NCBI GenBank assembly: GCA_001179885.1
Contig: CVSD01000036.1
Span: forward strand, 1 to 62,015
Direction: 5' to 3'
From: Candidatus Pelagibacter communis
GTDB taxonomy: Bacteria > Pseudomonadota > Alphaproteobacteria > Pelagibacterales > Pelagibacteraceae
Length of the DNA: 62,015 bases
Shown here: one piece after another, positions 22,390 through 28,357 of the stretch
How the letters are laid out: each line of letters starts with the position of its first letter
Position numbering within the stretch: position 1 is the first letter of the stretch
Notes under the pieces: generated by a model
Databases searched by the model: none
What the model saw: only the letters and a program-made list of their open reading frames with translations
Told to the model about the DNA's origin: nothing
Translations under genes and position numbers: made by a program

Positions 22390-23577
22390 ATGAAATCAAA
22401 AAAAAGAATTGTTTTAGCTTACTCGGGAGGGTTAGATACATCTATAATTTTAAAATGGCTTCAAGAAAATTATAATGCTGAAGTCATTTGCTATACAGCA
22501 GACATAGGCCAAGAAATTGATAGAAAAAAAATTATATTAAATGCAAAAAAATTTGGAGTTAAGAATATAATTATTAATGACCTAAAAGATATTTTTGTAA
22601 AAGATTATGTTTTTCCGATGATCCGTGGTCATGCAATTTATGAAGGTGTATATTTATTGGGAACTTCAATCGCGAGACCACTTATTGCAAAAGATCAAAT
22701 TCAAGTTGCAAAAAAATATAAAGCTTATGCAGTTTCTCATGGTGCTACTGGCAAAGGTAATGATCAAGTTAGATTTGAACTTGGATATCATTATTTTAAT
22801 CCAAGAATAAAAATCATTACACCTTGGAGAATTTGGAAATTAAAATCTAGAACAGATTTAATTAGTTATGCAAAAAAACATAGTATTCCTATTCCAAAGG
22901 ATAAAAAAGGTGCACCACCTTTTTCAGTAGATGATAATTTATTTCATACTTCAACTGAGGGAAAAGTTTTAGAAAATCCAAAAAATTCAGCTCCAGAATT
23001 TATTTTTCAAAGAACTATTTCTCCAGAAAAAGCTCCTAATAAACCTACCTTTGTTACTATTAATTTTAAAAATGGAGATCCGATTGGGGTTAATAGAAAA
23101 AAATTAAGACCCTCAAAACTGCTTGAGAAGTTAAATCAATTAGCTGGAAAGAATGGAATTGGAAGAGTTGATCTAGTTGAAAACAGATTTCTAGGAATAA
23201 AATCAAGAGGAGTTTATGAAACTCCAGGAGGAACATTATTAATTCATGCTCATAGAGCAATTGAGTCTGTTACTTTAGATAAAGAAACAATGCATAAAAA
23301 AGATAATATTATGTCTAGATATGCAGAGCTAATTTACAATGGCTATTGGTACTCAAAAGAAAGGTTTAAACTTCAAAAAATTGTAGATCTCAAAAAAAAC
23401 AAGGTTAATGGATCAGTTAAACTTAAACTTTATAAAGGCAACATAACTATTCAATCTAGAGTTACTAATAGTAGTGCTTATTCTATGAAGAAAGTTTCTT
23501 TTGAAGAAAATAAATCTTTTAATAAGTCAAATGTTGAGAAATTTATAAACTTTCATAAAAAAAAGTTAAGAAACTAA
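22390..23577 (+). CDS. argG: Argininosuccinate synthase
   Basis: Condenses citrulline and aspartate with ATP to argininosuccinate in arginine synthesis. The 395-residue protein has the PP-loop VLAYSGGLDTSII, the citrulline/aspartate site region GTSIARPLIAK, the SHGATGKGNDQVRFE motif and GIGRVDLVENRFLGIKSRG. Length and motif order are normal. Confidence 0.98.
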   Translation: MKSKKRIVLAYSGGLDTSIILKWLQENYNAEVICYTADIGQEIDRKKIILNAKKFGVKNIIINDLKDIFVKDYVFPMIRGHAIYEGVYLLGTSIARPLIAKDQIQVAKKYKAYAVSHGATGKGNDQVRFELGYHYFNPRIKIITPWRIWKLKSRTDLISYAKKHSIPIPKDKKGAPPFSVDDNLFHTSTEGKVLENPKNSAPEFIFQRTISPEKAPNKPTFVTINFKNGDPIGVNRKKLRPSKLLEKLNQLAGKNGIGRVDLVENRFLGIKSRGVYETPGGTLLIHAHRAIESVTLDKETMHKKDNIMSRYAELIYNGYWYSKERFKLQKIVDLKKNKVNGSVKLKLYKGNITIQSRVTNSSAYSMKKVSFEENKSFNKSNVEKFINFHKKKLRN

Positions 23578-23636: not shown

Positions 23637-24089
23637 ATGGATGGATTAAAAAAATGGATGCAAGAGTCAGCTAATATACTATTTGATGATAGTAAAAATG
23701 ACCTTAGATCTTTGCCCAAAGCAGTAAGATTACAAATATTGTTAGTATTAAGTTTTATTTGGACGACTGTATTCAGTTTATACGTTTTTTCTTATACAAC
23801 TTTTGCTTTTGGATGGGCCGGAACATATATTGCTCACGTAGGACTAATATTTGCAGTGTATATGACATTTAAGCAATTTCATAAAGCAGAAGAAAAATCG
23901 AGCAGTGTTTTTGAAACAAAAAATTTTGATCCATTTAAAATTATGGTTATTGTTTTTGTAATTGTTTTTATCTTCGTTTTTTCGAAAGGTATTGAGGTTT
24001 TAACAAATACTAACTCATATTCGATACCTTATGATGGACCATCAAAATCAGTATTTGAAAAATGGTTACCATTTAGTAAAGATAAGTAA
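23637..24089 (+). CDS. Membrane protein of unknown function
   Basis: A 150-residue protein with a charged N terminus and three hydrophobic segments (about residues 34-54, 60-80 and 104-124), then a short hydrophilic tail ending PFSKDK. No family is recognised. Its TAA stop overlaps the ATG of the PsiE-like gene by one base (TAATG), so the two are translated together and may form one membrane complex. Confidence 0.75.
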   Translation: MDGLKKWMQESANILFDDSKNDLRSLPKAVRLQILLVLSFIWTTVFSLYVFSYTTFAFGWAGTYIAHVGLIFAVYMTFKQFHKAEEKSSSVFETKNFDPFKIMVIVFVIVFIFVFSKGIEVLTNTNSYSIPYDGPSKSVFEKWLPFSKDK

Positions 24090-24469
24090 TGGAAAAAATA
24101 GCAAAAAATTTACAACTCATACTGATGGTTATCATTTTGATAAGCACAGTAATCGCTGTTGGAATTGAAATAGGGAAAATGTTTCAAAATCGATCTGTAA
24201 CTTTAGCTGATTTGTTATTAATGTTTCTATATTTAGAAGTACTTGCAATGGTAAGGGTTTTTTGGCATCAACAATCAATTAGTATTACATTGCCATTGTT
24301 AATTGCAATTACTGCACTAGCGCGGTTCATTATTCTTCAAGGAAAAGAGATGGATCCAGCTGCCTTAGTTTATGAAGCTGTTGCGATCGTATTAATTGCT
24401 GGAGCTATTGTAATCTTAAGATTAAGACACAGTGATAAATTGGGTCTAAAGAAAAAAAAATCAAAATAA
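24089..24469 (+). CDS. PsiE-like membrane protein
   Basis: A 126-residue protein with four hydrophobic segments and the pattern of phosphate-starvation-inducible PsiE: LADLLLMFLYLEVLAMVRVFW, then LLIAITALARFIIL and a last helix before the basic tail KLGLKKKKSK. The biochemical role of PsiE is unknown. It is coupled to the gene before it and lies 6 bases ahead of the photolyase-like gene. Confidence 0.82.
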   Translation: MEKIAKNLQLILMVIILISTVIAVGIEIGKMFQNRSVTLADLLLMFLYLEVLAMVRVFWHQQSISITLPLLIAITALARFIILQGKEMDPAALVYEAVAIVLIAGAIVILRLRHSDKLGLKKKKSK

Positions 24470-24475
24470 TTTAAA

Positions 24476-25615
24476 ATGAATTTTGAAGCTTCAAGGGCGA
24501 AGGCCTTAGACAAATTAAATTATTTTATAGAAAATAATCTTTCAGAATATTCTAAGTTAAGAAATTTTGATTTTGGACCAGAGAATAGATCCAATATTTC
24601 ATGTTTATCTCCTTATATTACTCATGGAATAATTAATGAGAATGAAATTGTTAAAAAATCACTAAGTAAGTTTTCCTTTTCAAAAAATGAGAAATTTATT
24701 CAAGAAGTTTTGTGGCGTACGTATTGGAAGGGTTGGTTAGAATTAAGACCAAATGTTTGGTCAGACTATTTAATAGAATTAAATAAAATCAGAGAAGATT
24801 TCAAAAACAATCAGAATTACATTAATGCTGTTGAGGGTAAAACAAATATTGAATGCTTTAATACATGGGTAAATGAACTTAAGGAAAATAACTATTTACA
24901 TAATCATACAAGGATGTGGTTTGCTAGTATTTGGATTTTTACTTTAGAACTACCTTGGCAATTAGGTGCAGAATTTTTTATGAAACATCTTTATGATGGT
25001 GATGCTGCATCAAATACTCTTGGCTGGAGATGGGTTGCTGGAATTCAAACTCAAGGAAAACATTATTTAGCAAGCGAATGGAATATCAAAAAATTCACCA
25101 ATAATAGGTTTAATAATATTAAATTAAATGAAAATGCTCATCCAAAAGTTTCTGAAAAAACTTACTCGATCAATAAACAAGATTTTAACAATCCGCAAAA
25201 TATAGAGGATAAAGATCTTTTAATTTTTGAGAACAATCTCTCTTTTGAAATCACAGATTTTCAGGATAATAAATTTAAAAAAATTTATTTAATTTCTAAT
25301 AAAAATGATAATCGATCAATCCAACTTAGTGAAAAAGTAGTGAAATTTAAATCCCTTTTGATTGAAGACCAAAAACAAAGATTAAAAGCTAAGTCTTTTG
25401 ATTGTGAAGTAATAAATATAAGTGAAATTAAAAAAATTGAAAACTGCTATGCTTTATATCCAACAGTAGGTGAAAACTTGGACTATTTAAATTCAAATAA
25501 TATAAAAATAGATTTTTTATATAGAAAACTTGATCAGTATTCTTGGCAATATTGCAATAAAGGTTTTTTTAATTTTAAGAATTATATTCCTAAAATTATT
25601 TCGACTTTTAATTAA
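24476..25615 (+). CDS. Photolyase/cryptochrome-like protein with FAD domain at the N terminus
   Basis: Flavoprotein of 379 residues. Residues 1-215 match the FAD-binding helical domain of photolyases: LRNFDFGPENRSNISCLSPYITHG, EVLWRTYWKGWLE, then HNHTRMWFAS, DGDAASNTLGWRWVAG. Residues about 228-379 form an alpha/beta-looking region (DLLIFENNLSF, FKKIYLISNK, NCYALYPTVGENLDYL). Ordinary photolyases have the alpha/beta antenna domain first and the FAD domain second, so this looks circularly permuted. DNA repair or light sensing is inferred from the FAD domain only. Confidence 0.82.
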   Translation: MNFEASRAKALDKLNYFIENNLSEYSKLRNFDFGPENRSNISCLSPYITHGIINENEIVKKSLSKFSFSKNEKFIQEVLWRTYWKGWLELRPNVWSDYLIELNKIREDFKNNQNYINAVEGKTNIECFNTWVNELKENNYLHNHTRMWFASIWIFTLELPWQLGAEFFMKHLYDGDAASNTLGWRWVAGIQTQGKHYLASEWNIKKFTNNRFNNIKLNENAHPKVSEKTYSINKQDFNNPQNIEDKDLLIFENNLSFEITDFQDNKFKKIYLISNKNDNRSIQLSEKVVKFKSLLIEDQKQRLKAKSFDCEVINISEIKKIENCYALYPTVGENLDYLNSNNIKIDFLYRKLDQYSWQYCNKGFFNFKNYIPKIISTFN

Positions 25616-26738: not shown

Positions 26739-26867
26739 TTAGCTTAACTTAGAACACTTCTTAGAACAATATTTTACTCTTTCCCAATTTAACTTCCATT
26801 TCTTACGCCAAACAAAAGGTCTTTTACAAACAGGACAAATTTTTGAGGGAAGATTTTCTTTTTTCAC
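26739..26867 (-). CDS. DUF2256 zinc-finger-like small protein (42 aa)
   Basis: Found by reading the gap between the amidotransferase and photolyase genes. GTG at 26867 to TAA at 26739 encodes 42 residues: [20 protein letters not shown], then KYCSKKC near the end. The CxxC and CxxxC pairs and the RPFxWRKKW core are those of DUF2256, a family of tiny putative zinc ribbons commonly found beside photolyase/cryptochrome genes. The GTG overlaps the TAG stop of the photolyase gene by one base (TAGTG). Function unknown. Confidence 0.85.
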
Positions 26868-28357
26868 TAGATTGTATTTTGTTTAATAAATTTATCTGCA
26901 GCTGATAAAATCAATTTTTTTCTATCGGTTTTCATTTTATCAAAAATTCTTACCATCATAGAAAGTCTTGGATTTTTTGAAAAAAATTTTCTATTTCGAT
27001 CAATAAATCTCCAGTACAGCCCATCCATAATGTTACACCAATCACCTTTTTTAAAATCCATCATTTTCATAAAGTAACTAGAGCCACATATATAAGGTTT
27101 GGTAGCAAATATTCCTCCATCACTAAACAATCCCATTCCATAAACATTAGGTACCATTACCCAATCTGAAGAGTCTACAAACATCTCCATAAACCATTTG
27201 TAAACAATAGTAGGTTTTATTTCACAAAGATTCATAATATTGGATAAAATCATTAATCTTTCGATATGATGAGACCATCCATGGTTTAAAGCATTCTTAA
27301 TTGCATAATCAAGTGGAGGCAATCCAGTTGTGCCCTCATACCAAGATTTTTTCATTTTTCTATTTTGTTTGAAGAAATTTCTAGTTTCCATTTCGTTTGA
27401 ATAACTTTGATAAATTCCTCTCATAAATTCTCTCCAACCAATTACCTGACGTATGTAACCTTCTAGTGAGTTTAATCTTATCTTTTTACTTTTGTGAAAT
27501 TCTAAAACTTTTTTAATAATAAATTCTGGAGTGATCAAACCTAAATTAATATATGGACTTAACGCACTATGAAACAAAATATTATCTTTTTGATCAACAG
27601 CATCTTCATAATCACCAAATAAGTTTGATTTTTCTTTAATAAAAAAATTTAAAAGCTTAACGACATCATTATATTCAGTAGCAAACCAAAAATTTTCAGT
27701 TTCACCTGGATGCTCTTTAAATAATTTCTCAATAATCGGCTTTAACTTTTTAGTATGATTAGTTTCATTTATTTTTGGAAATTTTGGTATTGAAATATTT
27801 TTTGGTAATTTGTTTCTATTATCTTCATCAAAGCTCCATTTACCTCCATAAGGATTTCCATCTGAACCCATTAATATTCCTGATTTTTTTCTGACATCTT
27901 TATAAAAAGTTGCCATAAAAGGTTTTTTTGATTTAGATAGATATTGTTTAAATTCCTCTCTTGAGTTTAAAAACATTGGAGTTTGTACAACATTCCATTT
28001 TATTTTTTCTTTTTTAAGAAATTGATTTATCTTTTTTTCAAAAAATTTATCTTCAACTTCAAAACTTGAAATCTCTTTTATTTTTTTTGAGCTAATTACT
28101 TTTTTTAATTTTTTTAAATAATCATCCTTAAATTCTTTATCCTCAATTTTGATATACTCTAATTTAAATTTATTTCTTTTAAGACTATCTGCATGTGAGC
28201 GCATTGATGATAAGAAAAGAAGTATTTTTTGTTTATGGTGTTTTTCATAAGTGCATAATTGGTAATCTTCAGCCATAAAAAATAGGTGATCCTTTTTGAA
28301 GCGGTCTAAGTATTTTGATGGAAATAATTGATTACCCAGTATAAAAAATAACTTCAT
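26867..28357 (-). CDS. Photolyase/cryptochrome-family protein of the PhrB (FeS-BCP) type
   Basis: A 496-residue flavoprotein. The N-terminal Rossmann-like part ([36 protein letters not shown]) and the C-terminal FAD domain ([55 protein letters not shown]) follow the bacterial (6-4) photolyase order. PhrB proteins hold a 4Fe-4S cluster on four Cys. Here the loop that carries two of them seems shortened to DFKKGDWCN, leaving Cys in LCEIKP, YICGS and DWCN. It repairs or senses UV damage by inference. It is divergent from the SDR with only 27 bases between. Confidence 0.88.

Follow-up and report, generated by a model that had tools for sequence, protein, structure and literature searches.

A predicted NewPHL-type photolyase with reversed domain order in a SAR11 bacterium

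Genes at the photolyase locus

The window is the whole stretch of DNA analysed here, 62,015 nucleotides of Candidatus Pelagibacter communis (contig CVSD01000036.1 of assembly GCA_001179885.1). The gene under study encodes a photolyase-like protein, referred to below as the window protein, and is preceded by a gene for a PsiE-family membrane protein and followed by a convergent PhrB-type gene (Table 1). The ORF starts with ATG, and its 379 aa translation contains all three motifs listed in the initial annotation of this sequence, LSPYITHG and HNHTRMWFAS among them. Pfam analysis identified FAD_binding_7 at residues 74–198 with an E value of 8.5e-17, which exceeds the curated cut-off. No second Pfam family was found in the protein at E ≤ 1, so the C-terminal part is left without a Pfam family; neither PF00875, the class I N-terminal antenna domain, nor PF04244, the DPRP N-terminal domain of FeS-BCP/PhrB, exhibited a Pfam match. 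No NCBIfam model reached its curated cut-off with the window protein, and a PDB sequence search returned matches confined to residues 3–209, with no full-length relative.

Table 1. Features of the photolyase locus and the evidence for each
Feature	Position in window	Strand	Evidence
NewPHL-type photolyase gene, 379 aa	24476..25615	+	ORF, Pfam, trees, family alignments
N-terminal FAD-binding catalytic domain, residues 1–212	24476..25111	+	Pfam match 74–198, model, VIA
C-terminal alpha/beta domain, residues 228–379	25157..25612	+	Pfam-negative; model, fold searches, profile comparisons
PsiE-family membrane protein gene (context only)	24089..24469	+	ORF, Pfam, locus comparison
PhrB-type ((6-4)-photolyase class) gene, 496 aa (context)	26867..28357	-	Pfam, PDB match, locus comparison

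The reading frame 5' of the ATG is open for two extra codons only (381 codons in total), and the PsiE-family gene stops 6 bases ahead of the photolyase ATG. An upstream in-frame antenna domain, a possibility raised in the initial annotation, is absent from this frame and from the preceding gene. A scan for promoters and terminators between positions 23500 and 28500 gave 23 promoter-like sites against a shuffle mean of 32.3, and the result was set aside.

A species scan gave 592 confirmed matches, and the surroundings of the gene were compared over the best 80 of them, all SAR11 loci. The neighbours checked include argG (69 loci), the PsiE-family gene (49), a second membrane protein gene (47) and a PhrB-type gene (57). 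Of the 76 loci with a downstream flank of 3,500 bases or more, 55 have an entire PhrB-type ORF inside that flank, a count that excludes copies cut by the end of the flank. The PhrB-type product of the window matches Pfam DPRP (E 8.1e-65) and Agrobacterium tumefaciens PhrB (4dja, E 1.4e-82). It is without the stretch that bears the CxxC of the Fe-S site in A. tumefaciens PhrB, and CxxC was found in that region in 0 of 35 SAR11 PhrB ORFs; these were selected on motif and length among the 80 loci, 57 of which have a PhrB-like ORF. The Prochlorococcus relative is described as lacking the Fe-S cluster in the available text of PMC9426592. Proteins with the PF00875 antenna domain are encoded in 44 of 61 genomes (relatives and own genome counted together), with no match in the own genome, which is 55% complete.

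The N-terminal FAD-binding domain

AlphaFold modelling of the whole protein predicted two domains with a mean pLDDT of 89.9 and a pTM of 0.90; residues 31–37 fall below 50. The VIA table for the full model covers residues 1–223 only, and its top row is the Thermus photolyase 1iqr, residues 173–411 (Z 15.8, rmsd 2.6, 207 residues aligned). The 50 rows (Z 13.1–15.8) match mainly residues 1–222 and are nearly all photolyases or cryptochromes; one row is the mitoribosomal chain 7pub_Ff. The class I/III CPD photolyases, such as those of E. coli (1dnp) and Agrobacterium (4u63), share the FAD-domain residues and the fold of residues 1–222 with the window protein, but place the antenna domain first and have PDB chains of 471 and 498 residues.

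In the PDB sequence search residues 4–197 align to residues 201–395 of E. coli photolyase. Conservation was scored over 68 NewPHL-type rows (47 SAR11, 21 other), comprising 64 from two alignments plus four named proteins. The first alignment holds 22 rows, with near copies from the genus and loci L023 and L042 left out, and the second consists of the window protein together with 42 SAR11 ORFs, kept out of 78 of full length after thinning to below 90% identity. Residues E77, W80, M147, W161 and D174, corresponding to E. coli E274, W277, M345, W359 and D372, are identical in 68/68 rows, as are D176, N180 and W184 (E. coli D374, N378 and W382), and W186 (E. coli W384) is identical in 67. The mapped E. 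coli residues, from E274 to W384, include those of the CPD contact and the FAD pocket.

The class I photolyase of E. coli uses a Trp triad. The position of its third Trp, W306, is occupied by F109 in the window protein and carries Trp in 0/68 rows. The remaining dyad of W184 and W161 is present in all 68 rows, as reported for the NewPHL of D. shibae, which has “a mere Trp dyad” according to the text available from PMC8948257. The FAD-pocket residues listed in the available text of PMC9426592 are also retained, with Y25, S45, R81 and N143 found in 68/68 rows and S42 in 67/68. An asparagine controlling FAD redox chemistry is stated to be kept in NewPHL in the portion of PMC12083526 at hand.

The C-terminal alpha/beta domain

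The initial annotation placed a FAD-binding helical domain at the N-terminus and an alpha/beta region after it, an arrangement that agrees with the position of the Pfam match, the two-domain model and the C-terminal strands. Modelled alone, residues 214–379 are predicted to form an alpha/beta domain (mean pLDDT 88.0), and the strands of the C-terminal part are at residues 247–250, 270–274, 310–314, 324–327 and 346–348. Foldseek analysis of this domain alone gave nothing at E ≤ 0.001; ranks 1, 2 and 4 were PhrB (6-4) photolyase (E 0.015–0.056, probability 0.99–1.00), and rank 3 was the unrelated Cam1 (probability 0.91). In the VIA comparison of the domain alone, the N-terminal domains of (6-4) photolyases were best (Z 7.3–8.5), followed by shikimate dehydrogenases and universal stress proteins (Z 7.3 or lower). 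The margin of the (6-4) photolyases is small, because unrelated Rossmann-type folds reach Z 7.3.

The C-terminal region is thus predicted to be an alpha/beta fold that best matches the N-terminal domains of (6-4) photolyases, which speaks against the lack of any Rossmann-like fold there. Where the initial annotation had offered either a circular permutation or an FAD domain joined to a new partner, the permuted order is supported and the new partner is not. The order of domains in FeS-BCP/PhrB, the source of the best fold match, is opposite to that of the window protein, and a profile comparison between the C-terminal domain and PhrB N-termini gave no match (0.54).

Profile comparison of the C-terminal domain with the ordinary antenna domain was not significant: the first alignment used gave 0.75, and a second, of greater diversity, 0.045. 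Against the partner ORFs of the split form described below, the domain scored 0.1 at first. The diverse alignment, picked after that first partner comparison had failed, brought the value to 0.0006 (probability 29%); the first C-terminal set was made without L121 (pattern mismatch). Negative controls for the domain, consisting of three unrelated families and two reversed alignments, gave 0.11–0.54. The partner ORFs themselves matched the ordinary antenna domain at 9e-7 and then at 1.4e-6 (probability 90.5%). When NewPHL loci were supplied to the partner profile, it missed their C-terminal domains, the best being L030 at 0.8, and produced a chance-looking 0.0004 in L047 and 0.005 in another frame of L034. 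The antenna link of the C-terminal domain is thus weak, and the domain may be tied, loosely, to the ordinary antenna domain by way of the separately encoded partner ORFs.

Distribution and conservation

SAR11 is an abundant bacterial group of the surface ocean. The best 80 of the 592 matches all belong to it (Pelagibacteraceae, Candidatus Pelagibacter and strain HIMB114), with identities of 54–93%. ORF length is 360–400 aa at 78 of these 80 loci and 407 aa at one, and because it is kept in this way a gene-calling or assembly artefact is ruled out. The domain order and length are kept at 79 of the best 80 loci. One SAR11 copy (L127:4001–5144) is split into two ORFs of 296 and 96 aa.

A match spanning at least residues 3–377 was found in 25 of 61 genomes, own genome included, and fragments were found in two more. 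Apart from the own genome, the 25 comprise 22 from the genus, for which 36 further genomes were covered, and two from another family of the order, for which 24 were covered; absences from the 61 genomes weigh little because many are incomplete. In a sample of 289 genomes from the class, 21 (own included) have matches with E values no higher than 2e-57, and the eight next-best genomes (E 2.8e-37 to 8.4e-28) carry the split type (L043–L050). Seven plasmid-borne alphaproteobacterial homologues exhibit 32–35% identity to the SAR11 protein over its full length. Four named plasmid homologues, from Peteryoungia, Novosphingobium, Asticcacaulis and Ruegeria TM1040, bear the sole annotation “FAD-binding domain-containing protein”. 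Both domains are under purifying selection, with a dN/dS of 0.05–0.12 in each of four SAR11 pairs. SAR11 joins the carriers of the NewPHL-type enzyme. The available text of PMC13274461 and PMC9426592 makes no mention of SAR11 or Pelagibacter; the class may have been reported from SAR11 elsewhere.

A scan of viral contigs gave eight pattern matches and no confirmed ones. Ten phage records match approximately half of the query, the FAD region, at 25–30% identity, and in a viral structure library the one hit at E ≤ 0.001 was a Tetraselmis virus photolyase, matching part of the protein. Unannotated Listeria, Staphylococcus and Enterococcus “phage” records (OR848178.1, OR846764.1, OR850038.1 and others) encode a photolyase-like FAD region, which may be host DNA.

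Split and fused relatives

In the eight genomes of the class sample with the split type, a FAD-only protein is encoded. A relative of the small second protein follows on the same strand in 8/8, overlapping the FAD-only gene or starting no more than 20 bases past its end. The partner profile was built from L043, L044, L047, L048, L050 and a Deinococcus sequence, so all of these match by construction; independent finds were made at L045, L046 and L049 (E 8.7e-34 to 2.5e-23). A CxxC..C motif is present in three of the eight split photolyases, L045, L046 and L049. A plasmid of Deinococcus sp. AJ005 (L147:1315–2685) encodes a fused protein, 456 aa long, in which the FAD domain comes first and a CxxC..C motif is present. 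Its residues 300–395 match PF00875 at E 7.2e-4, below the Pfam cut-off, and its sole annotation is “FAD-binding domain-containing protein”.

Two trees were built. With the longest branches included, the NewPHL branch holds 29 rows (support 99/99) and the split branch, with Persicobacter in it, has 94/94. The second tree leaves out the two longest branches, PhrB and Persicobacter, and recovers NewPHL with 29 rows at 99/99, split and fused forms with nine rows at 97/91 and class I with five rows at 100/100. In both, the window protein groups at 99/99 with the proteins of Ruegeria TM1040, Novosphingobium and Asticcacaulis, which are homologues from named organisms and not the characterised members of the class.

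Class assignment and predicted activity

The available text of PMC9426592 reports the NewPHL/Phr7 class as CPD photolyase and describes Prochlorococcus Phr7 as having an N-terminal FAD domain, a C-terminal Z-domain and no Fe-S cysteines. NewPHL, to which Phr7 belongs, is further described as having an inverted domain topology and as repairing CPD in single-stranded DNA. The SAR11 protein likewise has the FAD domain first, an extra C-terminal domain, the inverted topology and the Trp dyad, features shared with NewPHL as reportedly described by Emmerich et al. (2020, NAR 48:12845). By description too, Phr7 resembles the SAR11 protein in its FAD domain and C-terminal Z-domain, its lack of Fe-S cysteines and its origin in a surface-ocean bacterium, although the Phr7 host is a cyanobacterium. 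The domain order, conserved residues, predicted fold and family grouping are results of this analysis, and the window protein agrees with every reported NewPHL/Phr7 point that was checked. With high confidence, the gene is best explained as coding for a SAR11 member of NewPHL, the short photolyase-like enzymes, with predicted activity. Its placement in the class draws on the domain plan, the residues and its relatives in named organisms, rather than on comparison with the characterised D. shibae A8LJA9 and M. mesophilicum M7YZC8. The reversal of the domains is genuine, maintained by selection and in keeping with a described enzyme class. It is not new, because the NewPHL/Phr7 class is already published.

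From the sequence features, we infer an active CPD photolyase, and by analogy with the class its substrate is probably CPD in single-stranded DNA. FAD would be held by the N-terminal helical domain. Once reduced, it would be excited by blue or near-UV light and pass an electron to a CPD in the pocket, which would split before the electron returned to FAD. Oxidised FAD would be photoreduced via two Trp residues, W184 and W161, where other photolyases normally use three. The C-terminal domain may substitute both for the antenna domain found at the N-terminus of ordinary photolyases and for the stretch that normally ends their FAD domain. It probably packs against the FAD domain, closing off the flavin site, and would not serve as the carrier of an antenna pigment. 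The C-terminal domain of NewPHL is reportedly one that seals the FAD site.

A light-sensing cryptochrome, in which FAD and photoreduction are kept and signals take the place of repair, is improbable. Photolyase and cryptochrome cannot be told apart with certainty by sequence, and the C-terminal domain is no usual antenna domain by Pfam; the mapped CPD-contact residues are nonetheless each retained in at least 67 of the 68 rows, the NewPHL class is reported as CPD photolyase (available text of PMC9426592), and there is no evident signalling gene among the neighbours checked over the best 80 of 592 loci. The sensing function suggested in the initial annotation found no support.

A short photolyase type with Fe-S (SPL), said to have been described in 2021 by Xu et al., is a considerably less probable identity for the protein. 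SPL is also treated in PMC9649867 and PMC13274461, and the available text of PMC9426592 describes Phr4/Phr5 and Phr6 of marine Synechococcus and Cyanobium, which like the SAR11 protein have the FAD domain first and an antenna-type domain second. This FAD-first plan is shared, and proteins of the Fe-S-containing SPL/Phr4/Phr6 type sit in the adjoining tree branch, where a CxxC..C motif occurs in 4/9. The Fe-S-containing type has four Fe-S cysteines, and Phr4 and Phr6 carry such cysteines in that account, whereas the window protein has no CxxC (found in 1/68 rows, L028, in the C-terminal domain), none of its five cysteines is fixed over the 68 rows (the commonest is present in 58), and it falls in the other tree branch at 99/99. 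Phr4/Phr5 are moreover two ORFs, where the SAR11 protein is one. Breakage or truncation of an ordinary photolyase, with loss of its antenna domain, to which the class I/III type of the best N-terminal matches might point, is the least credible reading and can be set aside, as length and order are kept at 79 of the best 80 of 592 SAR11 loci and in the four named alphaproteobacterial homologues, and purifying selection acts on both domains in 4/4 pairs.

Origin of the reversed order

The NewPHL class is said to have been suggested as close to the origin of the photolyase family. For the NewPHL enzyme of SAR11, a different history, less likely than not, may be considered: the C-terminal domain would be a worn antenna domain, the two domains having been separated into adjacent genes and later rejoined in reverse, and NewPHL would then be derived and not a near-root relic. 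Split pairs persist in other Alphaproteobacteria, and Deinococcus has a fused protein with the FAD domain first. Both trees carry a long-branch warning between the class I photolyases and the rest and are midpoint-rooted, so they do not tell which domain order came first. The split pairs have a bearing on the origin of the NewPHL class, and those of the Alphaproteobacteria resemble Phr4/Phr5 of marine Synechococcus as described in the available text of PMC9426592.
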